Positions 35,222-49,692 of a stretch of DNA of 64,000 bases are shown here, one piece after another. A program made the translations under genes and the position numbers. The DNA comes from Mesoterricola silvestris (GTDB lineage Bacteria; Acidobacteriota; Holophagae; Holophagales; Holophagaceae). Within the stretch, counting starts at the first letter, position 1. Each line of letters opens with the position of its first letter. The stretch is from the NCBI RefSeq assembly GCF_030295405.1, contig NZ_AP027080.1:3766001-3830000 (forward strand), in the 5' to 3' direction. Below the pieces are notes generated by a model. It did not search any database and had not been told where the DNA came from. It saw nothing but the letters and a program-made list of their open reading frames with translations.

Positions 35222-36154
35222 TCAGGCCTCGGGGCTGAAGGGCTGGCCCAGCGAGGCCGGGGAATTGAGGCGGATGGTGTTCTTGTTGTGGGAGATGAGG
35301 ACCAGGACGATGATCGTGGCCGCGTAGGGCAGGGCCGAAAGGAACTGGGACGGGACGTTCAGGTGCATGCCGGAGCCCTGCACGAACATCTGGGTGATCA
35401 TGCAGCCGCCGAACAGGTAGGCGCCCACCATCACCCGGGCGGGCCGCCAGGTGGCGAACACGACCAGGGCCAAGGAGATCCAGCCACGGCCCGCCACCAT
35501 GCCCTCCACCCACAGGGGGGTGTAGAAGACGGACAGGAAGGCGCCGCCGATGCCGGCCATGCCGCCCCCGAACAGCACCGCCATGTATCGGATGCGCACC
35601 ACGTTGTAGCCGACCGAATGGGCGGCCACGGGGGCTTCGCCCACCGCCCTCAGCACCAGGCCCAGGCGGCTGCGGTACAGGAACCAGGCCACCCCGCCCA
35701 GCAGGGCCCAGGAGAAGTACACCAGCCCCTGGTGCTCGAAGAACGCATGGCCCAGCACCGGGATCCGGTGCAGCCCAGGGACGTTCCACGCCGCCACGCT
35801 GGGCAGGGCGACGGATTCGTAGGGCTTGCCGATGAAGGCGGAAAGGCCCACCCCGAAGATGGACAGGGCCAGCCCCGAGGCCACCTGGTTGGCCATGAAC
35901 GTCAGTGCGGCGACGGCGAAGATGAGGCCCATGACCATGCCCGCGGCCATGCCGGCCAGGATGCCCAGGAGGGGATTGCCGGTGTGCACGGTGACGGCGA
36001 AGGCGGCCACGGCGCCCATGGACATGATGCCCTCGGTGCCCAGGTTCAGGACCCCGGACTTCTCCGTGACCAGTTCGCCCACGGCGGCGATGATGAGCGG
36101 CGTCCCCGCCACGATGGTGGCGAAGAGGATGGAGGAAAGGAGACTCGGCTGCAT
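35222..36154 (-). CDS. ABC transporter permease, nucleoside-type (second permease)
   Basis: A 310-residue inner-membrane permease of the branched-chain/BMP-linked class (YufQ-like). I use the ATG at 36154, which has AGGAG 6 nt upstream; a GTG one codon earlier is also in frame. The sequence is almost wholly hydrophobic, with KSGVLNLGTEGIMSMGAVAAF near the N-terminus, the motif typical of these permeases, and VGYNVVRIRYMAVLFGGGMAGIGGAFLS in the second half (coupling region). It starts 9 nt after the first permease stop and would pair with it to form the membrane pore. Confidence 0.9.
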   Translation of the reverse strand: MQPSLLSSILFATIVAGTPLIIAAVGELVTEKSGVLNLGTEGIMSMGAVAAFAVTVHTGNPLLGILAGMAAGMVMGLIFAVAALTFMANQVASGLALSIFGVGLSAFIGKPYESVALPSVAAWNVPGLHRIPVLGHAFFEHQGLVYFSWALLGGVAWFLYRSRLGLVLRAVGEAPVAAHSVGYNVVRIRYMAVLFGGGMAGIGGAFLSVFYTPLWVEGMVAGRGWISLALVVFATWRPARVMVGAYLFGGCMITQMFVQGSGMHLNVPSQFLSALPYAATIIVLVLISHNKNTIRLNSPASLGQPFSPEA

Positions 36155-36163
36155 CACTATCTC

Positions 36164-37222
36164 CTATTTCTTCCAGCGGATGCGGTGGGTGATGAAAACG
36201 TCGGAACAGAGCAGGAAGAACAGCAGCAGGCCCTGGAACACCTTGGAGATGGAGTAGGGGAGGGCCAGGTACTGCTGGGCCTGTTCCCCGCCCAGGTAGA
36301 GGAGGGCCATGAGGAGCCCGGAGAAGAAGATGCCCACGGGATCCAGGCGTCCCACGAAGGCCACGATCATGGCCGCGAAGCCGTAGCCGGGCGAGATGTG
36401 CTCGGTGATCTGCCCCACGGGCCCGGCGATCTCGGCCACGCCCGCGATGCCCGCCATGGCCCCGCCCACCAGCATGCCGATCCACACGGTGCGCCGGGCC
36501 GAGAAGCCCGCGTAGCGCCCGGCGTTCTCCGCCTGGCCCGCGACCTTCATCTGGTAGCCCATGAAGCTGCGGTTCATGAAGATCCAGCCCGCGATGAGGG
36601 CGCCGACGGCGATGAGGAGCCCGGCGTTGAGCCGCGTGCCCGCCACCAGGATGGGCATGGTGGCCTTGGCCTGGAACAGCCGGGTCTGGGGGAAGTTGAA
36701 CCCGTCGGGGTCCATCCAGGGGCCGTGCACCAGCCAGGACACGATCAGCTCGGCGATGTACACCAGCATGAGGCTCGTGAGGATCTCGTTGGCGTTGAAG
36801 CGCGTCCTCAGCCAGGCCGGGATGGCCGCCCAGAACATGCCGCCCAGGGCCCCGGCGATGATCATGGCCGGGAGCAGGAGCAGGCTCGAGGAGTCGTGGA
36901 AGTGCAGGGCCAGGCCGCCCCCGGCCAGGGCGCCGATGAGCAGCTGGCCCTCGGCCCCGATGTTCCAGATGTTGCCCCGGAAGCCCACGGACAGGCCCAC
37001 CGCGCAGAGGATGAGGGGCGTGGCCTTCAGGAACAGCTCGGCGACCCCGTACTTGTCCTGGATGGGGTTGAGGAAGAAGACCTTGAAGCCCTCCACCGGG
37101 CTCTTGCCCAGGAGGTGGAAGAGCAGCATGCCCGAGGCCACCATCAGCCCCACCGCCAGCAGCGGGGACAGGTAGCGCATGAGCCGGGAAGGTTCGGGAC
37201 GCTGTTCGAACTTAAGCCACAT
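36164..37222 (-). CDS. ABC transporter permease, nucleoside-type (first permease)
   Basis: A 352-residue permease of the YufP class. Hallmarks: LCAVGLSVGFRGNIWNIGAEGQLLIGAL (the N.GAEGQ motif of BMP-linked permeases), RFNANEILTSLMLVYIAELI, and GFAAMIVAFVGRLDPVGIFFSGLLMALLY. About eight to ten membrane segments. Its start overlaps the ATPase gene by 11 bp. With its partner permease and the duplicated ATPase it makes a complete importer core. Confidence 0.92.
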   Translation of the reverse strand: MWLKFEQRPEPSRLMRYLSPLLAVGLMVASGMLLFHLLGKSPVEGFKVFFLNPIQDKYGVAELFLKATPLILCAVGLSVGFRGNIWNIGAEGQLLIGALAGGGLALHFHDSSSLLLLPAMIIAGALGGMFWAAIPAWLRTRFNANEILTSLMLVYIAELIVSWLVHGPWMDPDGFNFPQTRLFQAKATMPILVAGTRLNAGLLIAVGALIAGWIFMNRSFMGYQMKVAGQAENAGRYAGFSARRTVWIGMLVGGAMAGIAGVAEIAGPVGQITEHISPGYGFAAMIVAFVGRLDPVGIFFSGLLMALLYLGGEQAQQYLALPYSISKVFQGLLLFFLLCSDVFITHRIRWKK

Positions 37223-38768
37223 GGGGCGCCTCTTCCTTGGCCAGATCCGCGTCCGGCCACATTCCGCTCATCCAGACGCCCACTTCCTCGACCCCCGTCT
37301 CCGAGGTGGCCTTCGACGGCGAAAGGCGGCCCTTGGCGATCACCACGAGGCGGTCGCAGATCTCGAACAGTTCGTCCAGCTCCTCGGAGATCACCAGGAC
37401 GGCCGTGCCCTTCTCCCGGAGCCCCAGCAGCTGCTGCCGGATGAAGGAGGCCGCGCCCACGTCCACGCCCCAGGTGGGCTGGGCCAGCACCAGGACCTTG
37501 GGATCCTGGAGGATCTCCCGGCCCACGATGAACTTCTGGAGGTTGCCCCCGGAAAGGGACTTGGCCTCGCTCCCGGCCCCGCCGCACTTCACATCGAAGA
37601 GCCGGATGCAGTCGTCGGCGAAGCTCCGGGCCGCCTTGCGGCGGATCATGCCGAAGCGCACCATGCGCCTGCGGAAGGCCGTGAGGAGCACGTTCTCGGT
37701 GAGGGACAGCCGCGGAACCGCGCCGCGCCCCAGGCGCTCCTCGGGCACGAAGCACATGCCCAGGGCCCGGCGCCGGGAGGCGTTCATGCGCCCCGCGGGC
37801 TCTCCGCACACGTGGATCCACCGCTTGTCCGGGACCGGCTCCTCGCCGGAGATGGCCCGGAGCAGCTCCTGCTGCCCGTTGCCCGAGACGCCGGCGATGC
37901 CCACGATCTCGCCGCTGCGCACCTCCAGGTTGATGTCCTTGAGGTCCACGCCGAAGGGATCCTCGGATTTCACCGAAAGGCCCTCGATCCGCAGGCGCAC
38001 CTCCCTGCCCTCCTCGGGCTCGCCGTGGCTGAAGGTGGGCAGGTCCTCGCCGATCATGAGGCGGGCCATGGTCTTGGGCGTCTCCTGGGAGGGGGTGCAG
38101 TGGCCCGTGACCCGGCCGTTGCGCAGCACCGTGGCGGTGTGGCAGAGCTCCTGGATCTCGTCCAGCTTGTGGCTGATGTAGAGGATGCTCACCCCTTCCG
38201 AGGCCAGCTGGCGCAGCGTCTCGAAGAGCTTGCGCACCGCCTGGGGCGTGAGCACCGAAGTGGGCTCGTCCAGGATGAGGAGCCGGGGGTTCTGCAGCAG
38301 GCACCGGATGATCTCCACCCGCTGGCGCTCGCCGACGCTCAGGGCGTGCACGAGCCTGCGGGGGTCCACCGGCAGGCCGTACTTCTCCGAGATCTCCTCG
38401 ATGCGCCGGGAGAGGCCGGCCAGGTCCAGGCGGCCCGGGACGGCCAGGGCCACGTTCTGGGCCACCGTCAGCGTCTCGAAGAGGGAGAAGTGCTGGAACA
38501 CCATTCCGATGCCCAGCTCCCGCGCGTGGGCGGGGTTCTGCACCGAGACGGGCCGCCCTTCCCAGTGGAGCTCGCCCTTGTCGGGGCGGGTGACGCCGTA
38601 GATGATCTTCATCAGCGTGGACTTGCCCGCGCCGTTCTCGCCCAGGACCGCCCGGATCTCCCCGGGCATGATGGTCAGGTCCACGTTGTCGTTGGCGATG
38701 ACCGAGGGGTAGATCTTGCTGACCCCTTTGATGACTAGCCGCGGTGTCTCGGATTGGGCGTTCGGCAT
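37212..38768 (-). CDS. ABC transporter ATPase with two nucleotide-binding domains (nucleoside importer)
   Basis: A 518-residue cytoplasmic ATPase; the upstream GTG at 38780 would add four residues. The first half has a full Walker A (LGENGAGKSTLMKII), the Q-loop region MVFQHFSLFETLTV, signature LSVGERQRVEI and Walker B LLILDEPTSVLTP. The second half has the degenerate Walker A GVSGNGQQELLRAI that is usual in this class, signature SGGNLQKFIVGREI and VLVLAQPTWGVDVGA, where the Walker B Asp-Glu is replaced by Ala-Gln. So only one site is likely to be fully catalytic, as in sugar and nucleoside double ATPases. It leads the importer operon and faces the divergent amidohydrolase. Confidence 0.93.
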   Translation of the reverse strand: MPNAQSETPRLVIKGVSKIYPSVIANDNVDLTIMPGEIRAVLGENGAGKSTLMKIIYGVTRPDKGELHWEGRPVSVQNPAHARELGIGMVFQHFSLFETLTVAQNVALAVPGRLDLAGLSRRIEEISEKYGLPVDPRRLVHALSVGERQRVEIIRCLLQNPRLLILDEPTSVLTPQAVRKLFETLRQLASEGVSILYISHKLDEIQELCHTATVLRNGRVTGHCTPSQETPKTMARLMIGEDLPTFSHGEPEEGREVRLRIEGLSVKSEDPFGVDLKDINLEVRSGEIVGIAGVSGNGQQELLRAISGEEPVPDKRWIHVCGEPAGRMNASRRRALGMCFVPEERLGRGAVPRLSLTENVLLTAFRRRMVRFGMIRRKAARSFADDCIRLFDVKCGGAGSEAKSLSGGNLQKFIVGREILQDPKVLVLAQPTWGVDVGAASFIRQQLLGLREKGTAVLVISEELDELFEICDRLVVIAKGRLSPSKATSETGVEEVGVWMSGMWPDADLAKEEAPHVA

Positions 38769-39108
38769 TGGTGATCCCACTCAGGCTGACCTTCGATCCG
38801 GCGGTTTCCAGGCGGATCCCCCACAGCGGGGAAGCGCCATATAAATCAATTATTCCAACTGCCCACGGGCGGCGCCTAAATTATGACCGAGAGGTCATCT
38901 CAAGGCAGGGCAGGAAGAGAAAGAGTCACTGGATGCGGTATGCAAGTGAGGATAAACAAAAAAGAGACCATCGTGTCAAAATATTTTCACTCCCGCCGCC
39001 CCCAGGTCCCGCTTGCCCCGTCGTTTGCACACTAAGTTTATCATTTCCAGTAGTAAAATTGGTCGTTCGCCCCAAGAAATGACAGCCGTCACACCTCCGG
39101 AGCCCCCC
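38769..39108. promoter_or_regulatory. Divergent control region of the purine island, with inverted repeat
   Basis: This 340-bp gap separates the importer operon from the guanine-deaminase-like gene. It is much richer in A+T than its flanks. At 38883-38898 it contains ATGACC, GAGA, GGTCAT: a perfect 6-bp inverted repeat that could be an operator for a purine-responsive regulator. An AAAATATTTT palindrome lies at 38978-38987. I looked on both strands for a purine riboswitch core (the conserved three-way junction) and did not find one. No small gene is evident. Promoters for both directions must lie here but none has a convincing -35/-10 pair. Confidence 0.5.
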
Positions 39109-40599
39109 ATGACCGAGCCCAACCTCCTCGTCTGCCGCTGCCGTTTCATGCTCCCCCTGGCCGCCCCCGACCGCTCCCGGCGCATCCAGGACGGCTATGT
39201 GCTCGCCCAGGGCGGGGAGATCCTCGAAGCGGGGCCCTACGACCCGGCGGTGGGCAGGCGCCTGGCGGAAACCTGGGGCCGCCGCCTGCGCGTCCTGCAC
39301 ACCCGCCGGGAGATCCCCTCCGACGACCCCGTGCCCATGCAGGACATGGTGCTGCTGCCGGCCTTCGTGAAGGCCCACGGCCACGACCACGAGCAGCCCC
39401 TCATCGGCATCGCCCGGGACGAGCCCCTCACCGCGTGGCTCGACCACGCCGTGAACTCCTTCACGGGCTTCCTCAACGCCCGGAAGGACGAATTGCGCGA
39501 GCGCCTGGGCCGCACCCCCCAGGCCGTGACGTACCGCATGGCGCGCCTGTGCGACATCCACTACGGCATCACGGCCTCCATGGTCCACCACTGCAACTGG
39601 AACAAGTTCCACCTGGAGGACATCGCCCAGGCCAACGAGGCCGCGGGCACCACCATGATCGTGGCGGTGGGCGGCCAGGACCGCTTCTACGCCAAGGAAC
39701 TCCTGGACGCGCCGGGCGACGCCCTGGCGAGGCTGGAGAAGGCCCTGGCGATCCAGGCCGGATGCGAGCGCACCCGCTTCGTGCCCGGCCCCGACCAGTG
39801 CTTCTCCAACAGCCGCGCGGTGCTGATGCCCCAAAAAACCTGGGCCCGGGAGCACGGGACCCTCTTCCACATCCACAGCTCGGAGGAGCCCCGCACCACG
39901 AAGTGGTTCACGGAATCCATCGAACCCGGGCTCACGCCCGTGGAGTACTTCCAGGAGATCGGCATCCTGGACGGGGGCACCGTCCTGGCCCACCAGGTGA
40001 ACTGCGGGCCCCGGGACATCGAGCTCATCGCCCGCTCCGGCGCCGCCGTGGTGCACAATCCGCTGGCCAACACCATCCTCGGCTCGGGCATGCCCCCCCT
40101 CATCGACATGCTCAAGGCCGGCGTGCCCGTGGCCATCTCCACCGACGGCTCGGGCTCCGCGGACAACCAGAACATCCTGGCCGCGGCGCGCCTGGCCTCC
40201 CAGTACCAGAAGGCCCTGCACCAGGACGCCACGCTCCTCCCGTCCCAGCAGCTCCTGGAGATGATCACCGTCGCCCCCAACCGCATCCTCCGCCTCAACC
40301 AGGGGGAACTGGCCCCGGGACGGCAGGCGGACTGGATCCTCCTGGACCTGGCCCGGCCCAACCTGGTCCCCACCCGCCTGGACAACGTCACCGAGAACCT
40401 CCTCTGGGCCGCCGACGGGTCCGAGGTGGACGCGGTGGTGGCCCACGGCGCGGTGCTCAAGCTGGACGGCCAGCTCCTCCCGTGGCGCGACGGCACCCGC
40501 CCGGAAACCATCCTCGCCCAGGTGCAGGCCCTTTCCGAGTGGTTCGCGGCCTACCGCGCCGAGGCCCCCGAAGTGACGGGAACCGGCGCCCACGGCTGA
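39109..40599 (+). CDS. Amidohydrolase, guanine-deaminase-like
   Basis: A 496-residue metal-dependent hydrolase. The ATG at 39109 has CCGGAG 7 nt upstream. Motifs in order: LLPAFVKAHGHDHEQPLIG (metal-binding HxH), MVHHCNWNKFH, LFHIHSSEE, VLAHQVN (further metal His) and PVAISTDGSGSADNQN (catalytic Asp), then a C-terminal ILRLNQGELAPGRQADWILLD strand pair. This is the deaminase branch that includes guanine deaminase, 8-oxoguanine deaminase and SsnA. Divergent placement from a purine importer and xanthine dehydrogenase supports guanine to xanthine conversion, which would feed the dehydrogenase. A related deaminated substrate is possible. Confidence 0.82.
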   Translation: MTEPNLLVCRCRFMLPLAAPDRSRRIQDGYVLAQGGEILEAGPYDPAVGRRLAETWGRRLRVLHTRREIPSDDPVPMQDMVLLPAFVKAHGHDHEQPLIGIARDEPLTAWLDHAVNSFTGFLNARKDELRERLGRTPQAVTYRMARLCDIHYGITASMVHHCNWNKFHLEDIAQANEAAGTTMIVAVGGQDRFYAKELLDAPGDALARLEKALAIQAGCERTRFVPGPDQCFSNSRAVLMPQKTWAREHGTLFHIHSSEEPRTTKWFTESIEPGLTPVEYFQEIGILDGGTVLAHQVNCGPRDIELIARSGAAVVHNPLANTILGSGMPPLIDMLKAGVPVAISTDGSGSADNQNILAAARLASQYQKALHQDATLLPSQQLLEMITVAPNRILRLNQGELAPGRQADWILLDLARPNLVPTRLDNVTENLLWAADGSEVDAVVAHGAVLKLDGQLLPWRDGTRPETILAQVQALSEWFAAYRAEAPEVTGTGAHG

Positions 40600-40819
40600 G
40601 GACCGAGGATTTCTGGAGTTTTTTTTACGCCTCTGTCACGGACTGGAAACGGCGGGCAGGGAGCTGTATTATACAGAGTCTCAGTCTCTTCATTACTGAT
40701 TGAAATAATTTAGGTTATAAAAAGGACCAAGTCTTTTGAAATCATGTAACTTTTTTTCTTGATTTCACATGAATGGAAATTATTCTTTCAGTCACCAATC
40801 AACAGCCAAAGGAGGCTTT

Positions 40820-43615
40820 GTGCCGAGATCCCGTGGGTCCCTCACCCTTTTTGCATTCGCACTCGTGGCTGTCCCCACCGTCCTGGTGGCCCAGACCAGT
40901 TCCACCTCCGCCCTGGGCGGCGTGATCCGGGACGGTTCCGGCAAGCCCGTGGCCGGCGCCCTGGTGCGCATCAATTCCGCCACCATGATCGGCGGCGAGA
41001 AAACGACGGTGAGCGCGGAGAACGGCGCCTACCGGTTCTCGGCCCTGCCCCCCGGGTCCTTCAGGATTTCGGTGTCGGCCAAAGGCCTTGTGACCCAGAC
41101 CCAGAACGCCCTCCTGGAACTGGGCCGCACCGCCACGGTCAACTGGAAACTGCCCAGCGCCAACGCCGGCGCCACGGTGGAAGTGGTGGCCTCCACCGCC
41201 CGCGTGGACGACGCCGCGGTGGGCCAGACCCAGAACTTCGACACCACCGCCCTGGCCACCCTCCCCGTGGACCGCACCATCACCGCCATCATGGACCTCA
41301 CCCCCGGCGTCAACGGGAACCGGGCCTGGGGCGGCTACTCCGGCGAGAACGCCTACATGATGGACGGCGTGAACATCAGCGATCCCTCCGGCGGAACGGT
41401 GTGGATCTACCCCAACGTGGACTGGTTCTCCGAGGTCCAGGTGGCCGGCCTGGGCGCCAACGCGGAGTTCGGCGGCTACATGGGCGGCTTCGTCAACGGC
41501 CTGGTCAAGCGCGGCGGCAACACCTTCGAGGGCAACGTCAGCGCCTACTACGCGGATTCCAAGTGGCAGTCGCGCATCAACGTCAGCCACCCCGACCTGC
41601 AGGAGGCTGACAAGGACATCCTCCCCACCAAGAACTGGGACGTGGCAGCCGGCGTCGGCGGCCCCATCATCAAGGACAAGCTCTGGTTCTTCGTCTCCGC
41701 GGAACGCTCGGAGCAGCAGACCTCCCCCACCGGCGCCGAACTGCCCCAGCGGGACCAGAAGGTCATGGCCCTGGCCAAGCTCACCTGGGCCCCCACCACC
41801 AACACCACCCTGGAGTTCCTGGCCGAGCACGACTACGTGGGCCGCGACCGGCGCTACATCGACAAGTACACCATGCCCGAGGCCACCCAGAAGGAATCGG
41901 CCCCCAACCATTCCTACAGCCTCACCTGGACCCAGACCATGGATTCGGACAAGGTGCTCACGGTCAAGGCCTTCGGCTACTCCGGACGCTACGACATGCC
42001 CGGCTACGGGGGCAACGCCCTGAGCCTGGACACCATCGACCTCTGGCAGTACGACCCCAAGAAGCCCGCCCGGGAGTTCTACAACAACTCCACCTACGAG
42101 GACTTCAACTACCGGGCCCGGGCCACGGTGCAGGCCACCTTCGACTGGTTCAAGACCGGCCTCATCACCTCCGGCGACAGCCACGCCTTCCGGTTCGGCA
42201 TCGAGCGCGAACAGGCCTCGGACGAGGAGCTGGAGCGCTTCCCCGGAAACCTGAACCTGAACGCCACGATCTACCAGTACGATGACGGCACCCTGGAACT
42301 GGACGGCGACTACCTCATCCAGGGCGGGGGCTGGAACGTGCGCCAGCGCGTGGACCGCCTCGCCGCCTTCGCCCAGGACACCTGGCGCGTCAACGACCGC
42401 CTCACCATCAGCCCCGGCCTGCGCTTCGAGCAGTTCAAGGCCCGCTTCTACGGCGGCGACACCCTCTGGAACAAGAGCACCTACGCCCCGCGCCTGGGCG
42501 TGGCCTACGCCCTCACGGCGGACCAGACCACCATGCTCAAGGCCCACTGGGGCAAGTACTACGCCGGCTACTCCACCTACTTCATCGACCGGGCCATCCA
42601 GTCCGCCATTCCCATGAAGCGCTACTACAGCTGGGGCAACTACCCGGTCATCGGCAATGTCCTGGATCCCTCCACCTGGCCCGACCACACCCCGGGCACC
42701 GCCGACAACTACGAGTACCGGCGCGTGAACGACCTCACCCTCGTGGATCCCAACGCCCGGCAGCCCTACACCATCGAGACCACCGTCTCCATCGACCACA
42801 AGTTCGGCACGCTCTGGAGCGCCACCGCATCCTACGTCTCCCGGGACTTCAAGGACAGCCTGGTGCGCACCGACCAGGGCGTGGATCCCAAGGGGACCTA
42901 CAACACCTTCGTGAACCCCCTGAACGGGCAGAACTTCAATATCTGGAAGCCCGGCACGTACTATGATCCCATCCTCGACTTCAGCGTCGAGAACCACGCC
43001 TACGTGACGAAGAACGAGGACAGCGCCAAGCGCAAGTACGAAGCCGCGACCGTGACCCTGGACCGCCTCCTGTCCAATTCCTGGAGCATGAACCTCAGCT
43101 ACACCCACGCCTCCCTCAAGGGCAACATCCAGCGCGCGGACAGCTACGACAAGGTCTACTACAACCCCAACCTGCAGGCCAACTCCTACGGGAACCTCCC
43201 GGGCGTCAACGACCACGAATTCAAGGCCCGGGGGTTGTACGAGCTCCCCTGGAACATGCGCCTTTCCGCCACCTACACCTACCTGAGCGGCACCCACTGG
43301 ACCCCCACCTATCGCACCGACTCCTACAACAGCACCCGCTACGCCGTGAACCTGGAGCCCCTGGGCAGCCAGACCTACCCCTGCCGCTCCCTCCTGGACC
43401 TGCGGGTGACGCAGATGTTCAATTTCACCAAGAAGGCCCGCATGGAGGTCTTCGTCGAAGTCCTCAACGCCCTGAACCGTCAGGGCGTGACCACCTACAT
43501 CACCCGCGCGAACACCAACACGAACGACAACTCCAGCGTGTACAAGGACTATAAGTACCCCTCGGAGTTGGACGCCGGACGCCGCCTCCAGTTGGGCGCC
43601 CGCTACAATTTCTAG
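40820..43615 (+). CDS. TonB-dependent receptor, Oar-like, with N-terminal carboxypeptidase-regulatory-like domain
   Basis: A 931-residue outer-membrane receptor. I choose the GTG at 40820: AAAGGAGG stands 4 nt before it and the product opens with a signal peptide (PRSRGSLTLFAFALVAVPTVLVAQ). The in-frame ATG at 40769 lacks a ribosome site. Residues about 28-115 are a CarboxypepD_reg-like beta-sandwich (GGVIRDGSGKPVAGALVRI, ENGAYRFSALPPGSFRIS). A plug domain follows (YMMDGVNISDPSGGTVWIY, KRGGNTFEGNVSAYY), then a long beta-barrel ending LQLGARYNF with the terminal Phe of outer-membrane barrels. Context with cyanophycinase and peptidases suggests uptake of an oligopeptide. The 220-bp AT-rich gap upstream shows no clear terminator or promoter. 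Confidence 0.88.
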   Translation: MPRSRGSLTLFAFALVAVPTVLVAQTSSTSALGGVIRDGSGKPVAGALVRINSATMIGGEKTTVSAENGAYRFSALPPGSFRISVSAKGLVTQTQNALLELGRTATVNWKLPSANAGATVEVVASTARVDDAAVGQTQNFDTTALATLPVDRTITAIMDLTPGVNGNRAWGGYSGENAYMMDGVNISDPSGGTVWIYPNVDWFSEVQVAGLGANAEFGGYMGGFVNGLVKRGGNTFEGNVSAYYADSKWQSRINVSHPDLQEADKDILPTKNWDVAAGVGGPIIKDKLWFFVSAERSEQQTSPTGAELPQRDQKVMALAKLTWAPTTNTTLEFLAEHDYVGRDRRYIDKYTMPEATQKESAPNHSYSLTWTQTMDSDKVLTVKAFGYSGRYDMPGYGGNALSLDTIDLWQYDPKKPAREFYNNSTYEDFNYRARATVQATFDWFKTGLITSGDSHAFRFGIEREQASDEELERFPGNLNLNATIYQYDDGTLELDGDYLIQGGGWNVRQRVDRLAAFAQDTWRVNDRLTISPGLRFEQFKARFYGGDTLWNKSTYAPRLGVAYALTADQTTMLKAHWGKYYAGYSTYFIDRAIQSAIPMKRYYSWGNYPVIGNVLDPSTWPDHTPGTADNYEYRRVNDLTLVDPNARQPYTIETTVSIDHKFGTLWSATASYVSRDFKDSLVRTDQGVDPKGTYNTFVNPLNGQNFNIWKPGTYYDPILDFSVENHAYVTKNEDSAKRKYEAATVTLDRLLSNSWSMNLSYTHASLKGNIQRADSYDKVYYNPNLQANSYGNLPGVNDHEFKARGLYELPWNMRLSATYTYLSGTHWTPTYRTDSYNSTRYAVNLEPLGSQTYPCRSLLDLRVTQMFNFTKKARMEVFVEVLNALNRQGVTTYITRANTNTNDNSSVYKDYKYPSELDAGRRLQLGARYNF

Positions 43616-43687
43616 TTTGGTCCATTGAACGTGAGCGGCGCGGTGGGTCTCCGGACCCCCCGCCCGCGGCCTCGCCGAAAGGAAGCC

Positions 43688-44509
43688 ATGCTCCGCAGTT
43701 GCCTTCTCCTTCTCCTGACGTGCCTCCTGGGCGCGGCGCCGCCCAAGGGCACCCTGGTCATCGTGGGCGGCCACGGCACCACGCCCGACATCATGGACGC
43801 CTTCCTCAAGGGCGCCGGGGGCCGGGGCGGCGTCATCGGCATCATCCCCACGGCCACCGAGGACCCCGAAGGGGAGATCAAGGACTGGAACGAGACCCTG
43901 CCCCCCAACGGCATCACCCTGGTGCCCCTGGACGTGCGCAAGCGCGAGGATTCCTCCGCCCCCGCCATGCTCGAGGCCGCCGCGCGCTGCACCGGGTTCT
44001 GGTTCTCCGGCGGGGACCAGGCCCGGGTGGGCGACAAGATCGTGGGGACCCCCCTCCAGAAGCTCATCCTGGACAAGTACAAAGCCGGGGCCGTGGTGGG
44101 CGGCACCAGCGCGGGCGCGGCCATCATGTCCAAGATCATGCTGGTGGGCGAGGATGTCTTCGGCAAGCTGGACCTGAGGGAGATGGGGCCCAACGCCTAC
44201 ATCACCCGGGAAGGCATGGGCTTCCTGCCCCCCGACGTGGTCATCGACCAGCACTTCGTCAAGCGGGGCCGCCAGAACCGGCTCCTGAGCATCGCCATGA
44301 CCTACCCCGGCGTCCTGGCCATCGGGGTGGACGAGACCACCGCCCTGGTGGTGCGCAAGGGGGTGGGGACGGTGTACGGCGCCAGCGGGGTCATGGTCTT
44401 CGACACCCGGGGCATGAAGCTCAAGGGGGGCTCCTTCACGGACCTCAAGCTCCACTTCCTGCGCAAGGGCGGCACCATCGATCTCGCCACCCGCGCGGTC
44501 AAGCCCTGA
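43688..44509 (+). CDS. Exported cyanophycinase-like peptidase (S51 family)
   Basis: A 273-residue serine peptidase. The ATG at 43688 has AAGGA 5 nt upstream and opens a signal peptide (MLRSCLLLLLTCLLGAAPPK), so it is exported, like extracellular cyanophycinases and unlike cytosolic CphB. Core motifs: TLVIVGGHG, IIPTATEDPEGE, FWFSGGDQARV, and the nucleophile elbow VVGGTSAGAAIMS with Ser141. IDQHFVKRGRQNRLL is also characteristic of the family. Cyanophycinase cuts multi-L-arginyl-poly-L-aspartate into beta-Asp-Arg dipeptides. The next gene starts 1 nt after its stop. Confidence 0.88.
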   Translation: MLRSCLLLLLTCLLGAAPPKGTLVIVGGHGTTPDIMDAFLKGAGGRGGVIGIIPTATEDPEGEIKDWNETLPPNGITLVPLDVRKREDSSAPAMLEAAARCTGFWFSGGDQARVGDKIVGTPLQKLILDKYKAGAVVGGTSAGAAIMSKIMLVGEDVFGKLDLREMGPNAYITREGMGFLPPDVVIDQHFVKRGRQNRLLSIAMTYPGVLAIGVDETTALVVRKGVGTVYGASGVMVFDTRGMKLKGGSFTDLKLHFLRKGGTIDLATRAVKP

Positions 44510-44510
44510 C

Positions 44511-45977
44511 ATGCGGCTCCTCCTGCCCTTCCTCATCGCTTCGAGCCTGCTGGCGGCGCCCGGGGAGCGGCGGATCCCCTCCGATCCCCTGCGCCTGAAG
44601 GCGACGGTCTCGTACGGGGAGATGGAGGCCTTCCTGGCGGAGGTGGCCCGGCCGGGCTTCATCACCGTCACGGAGGAGGGCCGCAGCCACGAGGGCCGCG
44701 CCATCCGCCTGGTGCGCCTGAACCGCGGCGGCGCCAAGGCCCGCTTCAAGGTCCTCTTCTACGCCCAGCAGCACGGCAACGAGATCTCCGGCAAGGACGC
44801 CCAGCTCTGCCTCATCCGGGCCATCGCGGACAAGCCCGCCCTCCTGCCGGAGGACGTGGACCTCTACCTCATGCCCATGGTGAACCCCGACGGGGCCGAG
44901 GCCGGGCGGCGCACCAACGGCGCCCAGGCCGACCTGAACCGGGACCACATCCGGCTCCTCCAGCCCGAGACCCGCGCCCTCCACGCCGTGGCCCGGCGCA
45001 TCCTCCCCCACCTGGCCGTGGACAGCCACGAATTCACCCGGGACGGCAAGGACTGGGACGCCCGGGGCTGGGACTGCTGGCCCCTGATCACCCTGGACGG
45101 CCTCAACGCCCCCTGGATTCCCGCGGCCCTGCGCCGGGAGGCCCTGGCCCGGGTGGAATCCGCCCGGCCCGTCATGGCCCGGGCCGGGTACCCCTACGCG
45201 CGCTACACCGTGGGGGGCCTTCCGCCCCTGGACGAGATGCGGCCCTCCACCACCGAGGTGGACGACGGCCGCAACAGCCTGGGCTGCATGGGCACCCTCT
45301 CCTTCATCATCGAGGCCGGCGTCCGCCGGGAACCCGGCGCCCCCCAGGACCTCCCGGCCCGCGCCGACGCCTACACCCGGCTGTACCGCCACCTCCTGGG
45401 CACCGCCGCCTCGAGGCGCAGGGTCCTGGCCCTGTGCGAAGCCGCCCGCAGGGAGCCCCTGCCCCCCTACCTTCCCACGAACTTCTTCTGGGCCGCCCTG
45501 GAGGGCCGCACCGGCACCGTCAAGGTGACGGAACGGGCCACGGGCAAGGTGCTGGAGGTCCCCTCCCCGGGGCTCATGACGGACCTGGTCGTCAAGCGCA
45601 GCGTGCCCACGCCCCGGGCCTACGTCGTCGACGCCGCGGCCGCGGGCACCTTCAAGGCCCTCCTGGACCGCCACGGGATCCTCTATTCCCAGGCCGGACC
45701 CGCCCCCATCCAGGCCGAACGGTGCCGCCTCCTGCGGGTGGAGGCCGGCTACGACGATATCTACGGCCGCTACGAGAACCGCCAGATCGTGGAGCGGGAC
45801 CCCGCCGCCCCCCACGCCTTCCCCGAGGGCTCCCTGGTGGTTCCCCTCGATCAGCCCCTGGCGCGCTGCGCCATCGGCATCCTAGAACCCTGCCTCCTGT
45901 ACGGGCTATACAGCTACCGGGATTTCAGCACCCTGGCCCTGCCCGATGGTACCCTTCCGGTCTGGCGCGCACGCTAG
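44511..45977 (+). CDS. Exported M14-family zinc carboxypeptidase
   Basis: A 488-residue metallopeptidase with a short signal (MRLLLPFLIASSLLAAPG). Zinc ligands are in QQHGNEISG (His88, Glu91) and DSHEF (His173). The substrate-carboxylate Arg motif is ADLNRDH (Arg144), and the catalytic Glu is probably in TLSFIIEAGV. The peptidase domain ends near residue 290. About 190 residues with no recognised domain follow. M14 enzymes remove C-terminal residues from peptides. Tight packing between cyanophycinase and isoaspartyl dipeptidase suggests it acts on the same polymer or on its products, perhaps releasing side-chain Arg or Lys, but that is inference. Confidence 0.87.
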   Translation: MRLLLPFLIASSLLAAPGERRIPSDPLRLKATVSYGEMEAFLAEVARPGFITVTEEGRSHEGRAIRLVRLNRGGAKARFKVLFYAQQHGNEISGKDAQLCLIRAIADKPALLPEDVDLYLMPMVNPDGAEAGRRTNGAQADLNRDHIRLLQPETRALHAVARRILPHLAVDSHEFTRDGKDWDARGWDCWPLITLDGLNAPWIPAALRREALARVESARPVMARAGYPYARYTVGGLPPLDEMRPSTTEVDDGRNSLGCMGTLSFIIEAGVRREPGAPQDLPARADAYTRLYRHLLGTAASRRRVLALCEAARREPLPPYLPTNFFWAALEGRTGTVKVTERATGKVLEVPSPGLMTDLVVKRSVPTPRAYVVDAAAAGTFKALLDRHGILYSQAGPAPIQAERCRLLRVEAGYDDIYGRYENRQIVERDPAAPHAFPEGSLVVPLDQPLARCAIGILEPCLLYGLYSYRDFSTLALPDGTLPVWRAR

Positions 45978-45997
45978 CCGGACCTTGGAGTCGCACG

Positions 45998-47161
45998 ATG
46001 CTCCTCATCAAGAACGCCGATATCCATTCCCCTTCCCCCGAAGGCCGGTGCGACCTGCTCGCCGGCGGCGGGAAGATCCTGCGCATGCATCCGGACATCC
46101 GGATCCCCCGGCGCTACCTCGAAGTCATCGACGCCCGGAACCTCATCGCCGTGCCGGGCTTCATCGACGGCCACGTCCACATCATGGGCGGCGGGGGCGA
46201 GGGGGGCCCCGCCACCCGCACCCCCGAGCTGGCCTTCTCCGACGCCGTCCTGGGCGGCGTGACCACCATCGTGGGCTGCCTGGGCACGGACGGGGTCACG
46301 CGCACCATGGCCGGGCTCCTGGCCAAGGCCCAGGGGCTGGAGGCCGAGGGCATCACCACCTTCGCCCTCACCGGCCACTACGCGGTGCCCGTGCACACCC
46401 TCACGGGCAGCATCGAGGGGGACCTCCTCTGCATCGAGAAGATCCTGGGAGTCGGCGAGGTGGCCATGTCCGACCACCGGTCCTCCCAGCCCACCTTCGA
46501 GGACTTCGCCCGGCTCGCCGGGGAGACCCGCCGGGGCGGGATCCTCTCCGGCAAGGCCGGCGTGGTGAACATCCACCTGGGCGACGGGCGCCGGGGCCTG
46601 GAATACCTCCGGCGGCTGCTGCTGGAGACCGAGGTGCCGGCCCGCCAGTTCCTGCCCACCCACATCAACCGCAACCCCACCCTCTTCGAGGAGGGCACCG
46701 CCTACGCCCTGGCGGGGGGCTTCGTGGACTTCACCACCTCCACCGTCCCGGCCTTCGTGGAGGCCGGGGAGATCAAGCCCTCCGAAGGCCTCCGCCGCAT
46801 GCTGGACGCCGGAGTGGACCCGGGCCACATCACCTTCACCTCCGACGGCCAGGGCAGCCTCCCGGATTTCGACGTCAACGGCCGCATCCAGGGCGTGGGC
46901 GTGGGCCGCGTCACCAGCCTCTTCCCCGAGGTGCGGGACGCCGTGCAGAAGGAGGGGGTCCCCCTGGCCACCGCCCTGCGGGTCATCACCTCCAACCCCG
47001 CGCGCATCTTCAAGCTCCATGCCAAGGGCCAGCTGGCCCCGGGCATGGACGCCGACATCGTCCTCCTGGACCCCCGGGACCTCTCCATCCACACCATGAT
47101 CGCCAAGGGCCGCGTGCTCATGAAGGCCGGCAAGGTCCTCGTCAAGGGGACGTTCGAGTGA
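45998..47161 (+). CDS. iadA: Isoaspartyl dipeptidase (beta-aspartyl-peptidase)
   Basis: A 387-residue binuclear-zinc amidohydrolase, next to 390 in E. coli IadA. It hydrolyses beta-Asp-X dipeptides. Conserved residues: FIDGHVHIMGGGGEGG (His59, His61, Glu68), TGHYAVP (Tyr128), SDHRS (Arg161), PTHINRN (metal His, substrate Arg) and SDGQGS (catalytic Asp). The one departure is position 154: E. coli has a carboxylated bridging Lys162 in GVKCAISDHR, while this protein has Glu (GVGEVAMSDHR). No signal peptide, so it is cytoplasmic. GGAG lies 9 nt before the ATG. It would split beta-Asp-Arg or beta-Asp-Lys from cyanophycin after import. Confidence 0.9.
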   Translation: MLLIKNADIHSPSPEGRCDLLAGGGKILRMHPDIRIPRRYLEVIDARNLIAVPGFIDGHVHIMGGGGEGGPATRTPELAFSDAVLGGVTTIVGCLGTDGVTRTMAGLLAKAQGLEAEGITTFALTGHYAVPVHTLTGSIEGDLLCIEKILGVGEVAMSDHRSSQPTFEDFARLAGETRRGGILSGKAGVVNIHLGDGRRGLEYLRRLLLETEVPARQFLPTHINRNPTLFEEGTAYALAGGFVDFTTSTVPAFVEAGEIKPSEGLRRMLDAGVDPGHITFTSDGQGSLPDFDVNGRIQGVGVGRVTSLFPEVRDAVQKEGVPLATALRVITSNPARIFKLHAKGQLAPGMDADIVLLDPRDLSIHTMIAKGRVLMKAGKVLVKGTFE

Positions 47162-48540
47162 CGGAACTCCTGGGCAGGCCCGCCGCGGACTGGATCGCCG
47201 AGCAGGGCCTGCCCCTCCACCTCACTTCCCTGCCCAGGATCCGCGAGAACGTCCGGGCCTTCACCCGGGTCTTCCGGGACCTCTACCCCCGGGGCGCCGT
47301 GCGGTACGCCGTGAAGGCCTGCGCCCACCCCGTCCTCCTCGCCGCCATCCGGGCCGAGGGCGCCGGCGCCGACGTGGCCTCCCCCTTCGAGGCCCGCATG
47401 GCCCTCCAGGCCGGCCTGGACCCGCGCACCCTGGACCTCAACGGCAACTGCAAGGAGGACGAGCTCATCCGCGAGGCCCTGGCCTCGCGCATGCTCATCG
47501 TGGCCGATTCCGCCGAGGAGCTCGCCCTGGTGGAGGCCACGGCGCGGGCCATGGGCCGCCGGGCCCGGGTCCTGCTCAGGCTCTCCGGCTTCCACCTGGG
47601 CGGCGTGACCGGGGAGGCCATCTTCACGGCGGGCCCCTGGTCCAAGTTCGGCATCCCCCTGGCGGAGATCCCGCCCCTCCTGGAGAACCTGGGGGCCTAC
47701 CCCTCGGTGCGCTTCCTGGGCTTCCACACCCACATCGGCTCCCAGATCACCCGGGTCGAGCCCTACCTGGCCGTCCTGGGCCGCATGGTGGAACTGGGCC
47801 GGGTGCTCCGGGACCGCACCGGGGCCTGCCCCGTCCTGAACCTGGGCGGGGGCTTCCCCGTGAACTACCTGGAGGAGCCCGCCTGGGACGAACTGCGCCG
47901 GCGCACCGCCGCCCGGGACGGGTTCAGCTGGAACCTGGGCCTGGCCGGCCTGGACGCTGACGGCGTCTGGCAGGGCGAGGCCTACCACAGCCCCTGGCCC
48001 AAGGAGCAAATGGTGGAAGCCATCCTCCGGGGCACGGTGACCGTGGACGGCGAGGCCCTTCCCGTCCTCCGGGCCCTGGAATCCCTGGACACCCCCGAAC
48101 TGCTGGTGGAACCCGGCCGCGCCATCGCCGAGGACGCCGGCCTCACCCTCTGCCGCGTCGCCCACGTGCGCAGGGCCGGGGGCGCCCACAACCTGGTCAC
48201 CGTGGAAATGGGCGTCCTGAGCCACGCCGACGCCATGCTGGAGGGCCTTCCCAACCGCTGGGACATCCTCGAAGGCCCCGACGACCCCGAGCCCTTCGAG
48301 ACCTTCGTGGCCGGCAACCTCTGCTTCTCCGGCGACCTCCTTGCGAGGTTCCAGACCCGCCTGAGGCGCCGCCCCCGGCGGGGCGACACCCTCCTGATCC
48401 GCGACACCGGCGCCTACACCGCCCATTTCATGGCCAGCAACGCCAACGCCTACCCCCGCCCCCCGCGGCTCCTGGTGCACGGCGACGGCGACGTGACCGT
48501 GATGAAGCGCAGGGACCGCTACGAGGACCTCTTCGCCTAG
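47158..48540 (+). CDS. PLP-dependent decarboxylase, LysA-like (fold III)
   Basis: A 460-residue enzyme of the diaminopimelate/arginine/ornithine decarboxylase group. The GTG start overlaps the iadA stop as GTGA. The PLP lysine is Lys53 in RYAVKACAHP. FHTHIGSQI, NLGGGFPVNY (phosphate loop) and LVEPGRAIAEDAG follow, then GNLCFSGDLL and DTGAYTAHFMASNANAYPRP. In true diaminopimelate decarboxylases the Cys is normally followed by Glu (CES.D), which reads the distal end of the substrate. Here it is Phe, so a different amino acid is likely. Arginine, lysine or ornithine released from a beta-aspartyl polymer would fit its place at the end of this operon. Confidence 0.8.
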   Translation: MTELLGRPAADWIAEQGLPLHLTSLPRIRENVRAFTRVFRDLYPRGAVRYAVKACAHPVLLAAIRAEGAGADVASPFEARMALQAGLDPRTLDLNGNCKEDELIREALASRMLIVADSAEELALVEATARAMGRRARVLLRLSGFHLGGVTGEAIFTAGPWSKFGIPLAEIPPLLENLGAYPSVRFLGFHTHIGSQITRVEPYLAVLGRMVELGRVLRDRTGACPVLNLGGGFPVNYLEEPAWDELRRRTAARDGFSWNLGLAGLDADGVWQGEAYHSPWPKEQMVEAILRGTVTVDGEALPVLRALESLDTPELLVEPGRAIAEDAGLTLCRVAHVRRAGGAHNLVTVEMGVLSHADAMLEGLPNRWDILEGPDDPEPFETFVAGNLCFSGDLLARFQTRLRRRPRRGDTLLIRDTGAYTAHFMASNANAYPRPPRLLVHGDGDVTVMKRRDRYEDLFA

Positions 48541-48592: not shown

Positions 48593-48613
48593 AATTGATA
48601 ATTGGGTGCAAAA

Positions 48614-49042
48614 ATGAACCGCAATAATGTCGAAGACCTCGCCACGGGCCCCCAGGGGGCAGGCCGGGGTGTGGATGCGCAGCGCCATTCAGGACCCGCG
48701 ATCCGCGCCTTCTTCCGGATCAGCGAGGAATGGAAGCTCTCCGTGGAGGAGCAACTGGACCTCCTGGGGATGGAGAGCCGGTCCACCTTCTTCAACTGGA
48801 AGCGGGCGCAGAATGCTCGACTGGACCGGGACCAGCTTGAGCGGGTCTCCCACGTGCTGGGGATCTACAAGGCCTTGAGGATCCTGTTCCCCTCGGTGGA
48901 ACAGGCCAACGCATGGGTGAAGAAGCCCAATGCCGCCCCGCTGTTCGAGGGGCAGCCGGCCCTGGGCCGGATGCGGGAGGGCATCCGGGGGCTGTTCGCG
49001 GTGCGCTCCTACCTGGACGCGCAGCGGGGAGGGTGGGCGTGA
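48614..49042 (+). CDS. Xre/MbcA/ParS-type antitoxin
   Basis: A 142-residue protein; a TTG four codons earlier is in frame, but the ATG at 48614 is the simpler start. The middle (SVEEQLDLLGMESRSTFFNWKR) is a helix-turn-helix of the Xre type. The C-terminal part (LERVSHVLGIYKALRILFPS, then ANAWVKKPNAAPLFEGQPAL) matches the toxin-binding domain of MbcA/ParS antitoxins, where W...PN..F.G.P is diagnostic. It should neutralise the RES toxin encoded by the next gene and repress the pair through the upstream palindrome. Confidence 0.88.
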   Translation: MNRNNVEDLATGPQGAGRGVDAQRHSGPAIRAFFRISEEWKLSVEEQLDLLGMESRSTFFNWKRAQNARLDRDQLERVSHVLGIYKALRILFPSVEQANAWVKKPNAAPLFEGQPALGRMREGIRGLFAVRSYLDAQRGGWA

Positions 49043-49692
49043 GGCGGGCGGCCCTGGACGGGCAACCCTCCTGGCGGGTCATCGCGGCCCGGCATCCCCC
49101 CATTACGCTGTTCGAGCTGGTGGCGTCCCGCGAGGACTTCGAGGCGCTGTACGAACTCGAAGCCGCCTTCAGCCCCCACTACGACGAAATTACCCTGCTC
49201 CAGTATCTACCCCGTTCCAAATGGGTCTTCGGACCCGGGAGCGGGTACATCATGGCGCCCTTCGCCTACCTGACCTCATCCCGGTTCACCGACGGCACCT
49301 TCGGGGTTTACTACGCGGCCATGGACGAGGAGACCGCCATCCGGGAGGTCGCCTTCCACCGGGGCATCTTCATGTCCAGGACCCACGAACCGGCTTCGGC
49401 CCTGGAGGAACAGATCCTAATCGCCCGCATTTCGGGGGAACTGGTGGACATCCGGGGCCAACAGGCCTCCCAGCCGACCTTGTACGCGCCGGACCCGCTG
49501 GCCTACGGGCCTGCCCAGGCGTTTGGCGCCAGCCTGCGCGGTGCCGGGGAGACCGGGATCGCCTTCTCCAGCGTCCGGAACGCCGGGGGGGAATGCGTGG
49601 GCATCTTCCGCCCCAGGGCCGTCAAGGAATGCCATCAGGTTCGCCCCCTTCGCTACGTTTGGGACGGTGCCAAAATCGCCGGTTGGGCCTAG
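49039..49692 (+). CDS. RES-domain toxin
   Basis: A 217-residue protein starting at GTG with GGGGAGGG upstream. The start overlaps the antitoxin stop as GTGA. The RES domain is marked by an N-terminal WRVIAARHPPI, FAYLTSSRFTDGTFGVYYAA and MDEETAIREVAFHRGIF, with the Tyr and Glu expected at the NAD-binding cleft, and a late AFSSVRNAGGECVGIF. RES toxins of known pairs degrade NAD+ or ADP-ribosylate a metabolic enzyme. Which of these applies cannot be read from the sequence. The gene is immediately followed by palindromic repeat element 2. Confidence 0.88.
   Translation: MRRAALDGQPSWRVIAARHPPITLFELVASREDFEALYELEAAFSPHYDEITLLQYLPRSKWVFGPGSGYIMAPFAYLTSSRFTDGTFGVYYAAMDEETAIREVAFHRGIFMSRTHEPASALEEQILIARISGELVDIRGQQASQPTLYAPDPLAYGPAQAFGASLRGAGETGIAFSSVRNAGGECVGIFRPRAVKECHQVRPLRYVWDGAKIAGWA

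Follow-up and report, generated by a model that had tools for sequence, protein, structure and literature searches.

A putative operon for scavenging external cyanophycin in Mesoterricola silvestris and other Holophagaceae

We analyzed a 64,000-nucleotide stretch of the Mesoterricola silvestris genome (contig NZ_AP027080.1, positions 3,766,001 to 3,830,000; hereafter the window), in which five genes on the + strand, spanning 40769-48540, make up an operon that probably serves to scavenge external cyanophycin or a close beta-aspartyl polymer. Cyanophycin is a nitrogen-storage polymer of other microbes. In order, the genes encode a TonB-dependent outer-membrane receptor, an exported cyanophycinase, an exported M14 zinc carboxypeptidase, the cytoplasmic isoaspartyl dipeptidase IadA and a LysA-like decarboxylase, with intergenic gaps of 72, 1, 20 and -4 bp. 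An earlier note on this DNA had described five tightly spaced genes in one direction at 40820-48540, and all of them are present within a few bases of those limits. It had also proposed a scavenging operon; external scavenging is supported by our analysis, but the role that the note gave to the decarboxylase is doubtful, and the concept itself has already been published. We consider scavenging well supported because family models are exceeded above their cut-offs, the cyanophycinase is of an exported type, a receptor accompanies it, cyanophycin synthetase (CphA) is absent, the gene order is conserved, and similar loci occur in other phyla.

The cyanophycinase gene (43688..44509, + strand) encodes a 273-residue protein of peptidase family S51, the only S51 protein in the host genome, with a hydrophobic, export-type N-terminus. 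Its score against the TIGR02069 cyanophycinase equivalog is 155.4 bits (cut-off 126.6), and the catalytic motif GTSAGA begins at residue 139, placing the nucleophile at Ser141 as had been predicted. Residues 24-259 align with the solved cyanophycinases 3en0, 7uqv and 7uqw (the last a Ser-to-Ala chain), and the alignment keeps Ser141, His189, Glu216 and Gln111 together with the motifs GTSAG, DQHF, R.R..R and GDQ; the functional roles that we assign to these four residues and to R.R..R are those usual for the family. The catalytic and substrate residues are invariant across 16 exported homologs. On the same strand, 1.5 kb away, lies the gene for IadA (45998..47161, + strand, 387 residues), which scores 514 bits against TIGR01975 (cut-off 331) over residues 2-387 and is near the solved isoaspartyl dipeptidases 7cdh (the best match), 1onw and 8dqn. 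It has no signal peptide, in agreement with the cytoplasmic dipeptidase of the earlier note. Residue 154 of IadA is a glutamate (in GVGEVAMSDHR), as it is in the solved homolog 7cdh, at the position where E. coli IadA presumably has a carboxylated bridging lysine.

No CphA above cut-off was found in the host genome, which is 4.99 Mb long, assembled as a single contig and 98.3% complete. Its sole weak CphA match is a GshB-type ATP-grasp protein adjoining GshA (it scores 429.6 on the GshA/GshB model, whose cut-off is 425), and the lack of a synthetase that had been remarked on from the window extends to the genome. We surveyed 37 genomes of the family Holophagaceae, 13 of which have an ortholog of the cyanophycinase, and CphA above cut-off is present in none of the family genomes that carry the exported cyanophycinase. 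Genus g11 of the same family consists of producers, with an IadA-cyanophycinase-CphA cluster whose cyanophycinase lacks a hydrophobic N-terminus. Such a cluster would suit a cell that breaks down cyanophycin which it has stored itself, but that explanation of the window's operon is extremely improbable and we rejected it, given the lack of CphA in the host and in its scavenging relatives, the export-type N-terminus, and the position of this cyanophycinase in a tree that separates receptor- or carrier-linked cyanophycinases from CphA-linked ones. Across about 100 loci (duplicates removed), a biased sample rather than a census in that 80 of them are best matches to exported homologs, a hydrophobic N-terminus is found in 36 of the 37 receptor- or carrier-linked cyanophycinases and in none of the 27 CphA-linked ones; for the one exception, L102, reading the start by eye does reveal a hydrophobic N-terminus (MVQRQRAFVSRRLLLGGLVVMLCLTGATADGDEIRG). 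Among the family genomes examined, none is both a producer and a scavenger. The earlier proposal of an external polymer is well supported by the absence of CphA, the exported cyanophycinase, the receptor and the conserved order. Close to each of two loci, L049 (genus g11, which has loci L047 and L049) and L037 (genus g10), there are genes that resemble serS and that of a type I asparaginase.

Five genera (g1, g4, g7, g9 and g10) share the order receptor-cyanophycinase-M14-IadA, as do Holophagaceae contigs, and we regard the gene set as more than a chance assembly because of this. Most of the Holophagaceae genera with the locus have an RpiR gene upstream and a YfcC/DcuC carrier gene downstream of the four-gene core, and in a wider scan with one genome per species, the full order RpiR-receptor-cyanophycinase-M14-IadA-YfcC/DcuC was seen in Holophagaceae contigs. 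A cyanophycinase gene followed by a YfcC/DcuC carrier, in many cases together with RpiR and a receptor-like gene, occurs in Ignavibacteria, Bacteroidota and Elusimicrobia. The carrier scores 352.7 bits against the 'putative basic amino acid antiporter YfcC' model (cut-off 500). Conservation of all five genes had been suggested as a check, and it extends to the first four only, the LysA-like gene being found at the locus in the window's genus alone, where it occupies the position that the carrier holds in relatives. The locus of this genus contains neither RpiR nor the carrier, and a 68%-identical carrier is encoded elsewhere in the host genome (G000:C1:1199825). In a more distant Acidobacterial locus (L081:6602-18049), a receptor and a cyanophycinase lie on one strand with a CapA/MslH-like open reading frame (ORF) directly after the cyanophycinase, and about 3 kb off on the opposite strand are genes for an M20 peptidase, a YfcC/DcuC carrier, an M14 protein and an enolase-superfamily protein.

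The receptor gene (40769..43615, + strand) encodes a 948-residue protein of Oar-like type with an OMP_b-brl_4 domain (PF25183), an N-terminal CarboxypepD_reg domain (PF13620) and a TonB barrel (PF00593). It provides a transporter gene inside the locus, as cyanophycin utilisation loci have, and wherever a family locus extends far enough to show it, a TonB receptor stands upstream of the cyanophycinase. Receptor sequences vary greatly: that of G002, from the same genus, is only 47% identical to the window's, and those of other genera (loci among L031-L068) form two identity groups, 71-75% and 37-51%, which arise at similar enzyme divergence (cyanophycinase 54-64% and IadA 68-73% identical to the window's). 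The receptor gene seems to have been exchanged repeatedly while the enzymes stayed. A receptor with a peptidase is the usual layout of lasso-peptide catabolic loci, and this layout, like the CapA/MslH-like gene in L081, would fit processing of a lasso peptide or a siderophore-like isopeptide, with the receptor importing one specific peptide that the peptidases then open. We rejected this explanation, which is very improbable: neither an S9 prolyl-oligopeptidase isopeptidase nor a lasso biosynthesis gene was found among the locus genes, and in many genomes the partners of the receptor are cyanophycinase and IadA.

The M14 gene (44511..45977, + strand) is the most constant companion of the cyanophycinase, being present in all 13 family genomes that have this cyanophycinase and also in G031, where a short contig begins within the M14 and continues with IadA (Fisher p about 4e-9 for the co-occurrence, a value that ignores the relatedness of the genomes). 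Its 488-residue product passes PF00246 (55.4 bits, cut-off 21.6) and has an intact zinc-carboxypeptidase site, with H88, E91, N143, R144, H173 and E268 invariant in 16 orthologs. In a structure model with a predicted template modeling score (pTM) of 0.82, the part from residue 18 to residue 307 resembles carboxypeptidases A, B and T (Z 20-23), and an extra C-terminal domain (about 310-488) lies outside these matches. We examined the model for a pocket like that of carboxypeptidase B, suited to a basic C-terminal residue; the specificity-pocket loop (233-253) is modelled at a predicted local distance difference test (pLDDT) under 50. The side-chain arginine of cyanophycin keeps a free alpha-carboxylate, and action of a carboxypeptidase on this polymer is chemically plausible for that reason. 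The aspartoacylase family shares the carboxypeptidase fold. It is to this family that the known specific beta-Asp-Arg hydrolases belong (PMC10206079). The exported M14 protein could conceivably be a carboxypeptidase-fold isopeptidase that frees arginine from beta-Asp-Arg or from polymer side chains before they reach the cytoplasm, an idea that we put forward tentatively and think unlikely rather than likely.

Some of these features could also be accommodated by a general operon for isoaspartyl and isopeptide-containing peptides of dead cells (from damaged protein or the beta-Asp cross-bridges of peptidoglycan), in which the S51 and M14 proteins would trim outside the cell, IadA would remove beta-Asp, and the LysA-like protein would use the released diaminopimelate (DAP) or lysine. 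IadA enzymes of cyanophycin clusters are promiscuous toward beta-aspartyl dipeptides (PMC10206079), which would suit such a diet, as would the presence of a LysA-like gene in the operon and the placing of M14 beside enolase-superfamily and M20 peptidase genes in L081. M14 also matches the model of the murein tripeptide amidase MpaA, but weakly, at 21.3 bits where the cut-off is 157. Moreover, the S51 protein exceeds the cyanophycinase cut-off and keeps DQHF and the arginine residues, the LysA-like protein lacks the glutamate of the DAP-decarboxylase loop, and no murein hydrolase or amidase is among the locus genes. We judge a dead-cell diet improbable as the purpose of the operon.

The fifth gene (47158..48540, + strand, with a GTG start and a 4-bp overlap with iadA) encodes a 460-residue LysA-related fold-III pyridoxal phosphate (PLP) decarboxylase. 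Its catalytic Lys and Cys motifs are retained, and it scores 227.7 bits against TIGR01048, under the cut-off of 297.9. The catalytic-Cys loop NLCFSGD is invariant in 7 of 7 members, with Phe replacing Glu where aligned DAP decarboxylases have CETGD or CESSD. The Cys loop and a 3-10 specificity helix have been described as setting substrate choice in fold-III decarboxylases (FigC study, PMC7857480); the window's protein belongs to the same fold family as the LysA and other decarboxylases of that study, but differs in its below-cut-off score and in having CFSGD instead of CE(S/T)xD. In its structure model, the C-terminal half has a mean pLDDT of 60. The gene is confined to the window's genus among 297 sampled genomes of the phylum and 60 relatives, and a plasmid search for relatives yielded nothing closer than matches at about 30% identity, several of them annotated as lysA or Y4yA. 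A role in canonical lysine biosynthesis is unsupported, since a second protein of the host genome exceeds the LysA cut-off (447.7 bits), and we set that role aside.

The earlier note had assigned to this gene the decarboxylation of the basic amino acid that is released, a claim that fared poorly: the score is below the LysA cut-off, the loop is CFSGD, the gene occurs in one genus, and a paralog exists in an operon without cyanophycinase. That operon, seen in two species (L143:3689-9300 and L144:4744-10355), comprises a TonB receptor, an exported enolase-superfamily epimerase resembling L-Ala-D/L-Glu epimerase, and the LysA-like paralog, about 66% identical. The LysA-like protein is probably an enzyme that belongs to the diet of its receptor; decarboxylation of the released arginine is possible but unsupported. 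Elsewhere in the host genome, the start of the sequence at L141:7244-9142 resembles a biosynthetic arginine decarboxylase (read by eye), and L140:7452-8807 encodes a DAP decarboxylase that exceeds the LysA cut-off and whose N-terminal extension is signal-like, which suggests an exported LysA.

We propose the following scheme, which builds on the family membership of each protein, the conserved order and the absence of CphA, all read from the sequence, and on cellular locations that are probable. The exported cyanophycinase, by homology, would cut the polymer down to beta-Asp-Arg dipeptides, either outside the cell or in the periplasm, and the TonB receptor, to judge by its conserved linkage, would carry dipeptides or short oligomers across the outer membrane. 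The exported M14 enzyme would remove C-terminal residues that have a free alpha-carboxylate, most plausibly the arginine of beta-Asp-Arg or of the polymer; alternatively, it may trim other peptides that are co-imported with cyanophycin pieces. A YfcC/DcuC carrier, here encoded outside the locus, would take dipeptides or amino acids through the inner membrane. In the cytoplasm, IadA, as a member of its family, would split beta-Asp-Arg into aspartate and arginine, and in the window's genus only, the LysA-like protein may decarboxylate some amino acid tied to the cyanophycin diet.

Several points weigh against cyanophycin scavenging. Export was called from a measure of N-terminal hydrophobicity. 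The receptor belongs to a generic, Oar-like class, and no inner-membrane carrier is encoded within the locus in the window's genus. Given the promiscuity described for IadA (PMC10206079), its presence leaves the substrate unfixed. Given the arrangement in L081, M14 and the carrier may take part in the use of a broader range of peptides.

Gene clusters that pair cyanophycinase with isoaspartyl dipeptidase have been reported before from genomes without CphA, as scavenging clusters (PMC10206079). The cyanophycin utilisation locus of strain L21-Spi-D4 (Ben Hania et al., via Sharon and Schmeing 2023, PMC10206079) also groups transport genes with those for cyanophycinase and isoaspartyl dipeptidase, lies in a genome that lacks CphA1, and has been read as external scavenging; by comparison, the window's operon has a TonB receptor, a constant exported M14, a LysA-like gene and a carrier outside the locus. 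In Ca. Sulfomarinibacter, which belongs to the same phylum but a different class, cyanophycinases with signal peptides were reported without CphA, with an isoaspartyl dipeptidase in one genome, and external cyanophycin was proposed as a nutrient; a receptor-M14-IadA operon is not described in the consulted part of that paper (Flieder et al. 2021, PMC8528874). In the alphaproteobacterium Citromicrobium sp. JLT1363, a TonB-dependent transporter lies beside a cyanophycinase and cyanophycin was proposed as its substrate, with no mention of M14 or IadA in the consulted part of the source (PMC3400609). CphE of Pseudomonas alcaligenes is a secreted cyanophycinase, as the window's is predicted to be, but of a different size (1260-bp gene, mature protein 43.6 kDa, against 273 residues), a comparison made by description only (PMC3235067). 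Among freshwater Acidobacteriota, Acidiparvus lacks cyanophycinase, unlike other Holophagaceae (PMC11561045). Utilisation loci, exported Acidobacteriota cyanophycinases and a TonB receptor beside a cyanophycinase are therefore already known, and what is new is the constant M14 partner, the split between exported and cytoplasmic cyanophycinases, the repeated receptor swapping and the genus-specific decarboxylase.

The probable promoter region of the operon (40600..40768, + strand) is AT-rich (39% GC) and contains a weak sigma-70-like match at 40644-40672 (9 of 12 consensus positions; 2 such matches were seen in the scanned region and 0.7 were expected). Upstream of it, at 35222-40599, the neighbors of the operon in this genus are divergent ABC importer genes and an amidohydrolase gene of guanine-deaminase/ATZ-TRZ type (ORF 39013-40599). 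The amidohydrolase is beside the locus in 5 of 5 locus-bearing genomes of the window's genus and absent there in the other genera seen, and with its linkage limited in this way we treat it and the preceding ABC genes as neighbors. Downstream, 61 bp past the end of the operon, a gene for an Xre/MbcA-type antitoxin is followed by one for a RES-domain toxin (48602-49692); this toxin-antitoxin module was set aside as not part of the operon.

The operon would give the Holophagaceae a concrete nitrogen source, and it singles out a constant, uncharacterised partner, the M14 enzyme, and the YfcC/DcuC carrier family as candidates for the least-known steps of scavenging, uptake and dipeptide handling. 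If M14 does act on cyanophycin, it would be the extracytoplasmic counterpart of the aspartoacylase-family hydrolases of cyanophycin dipeptides, and such a role would explain its constant membership of the locus in this family. That exported cyanophycinases are receptor-linked and cytoplasmic ones CphA-linked offers a simple genomic rule for telling scavengers from producers, and the lack of overlap between the two within the Holophagaceae makes a producer/scavenger pairing directly testable.

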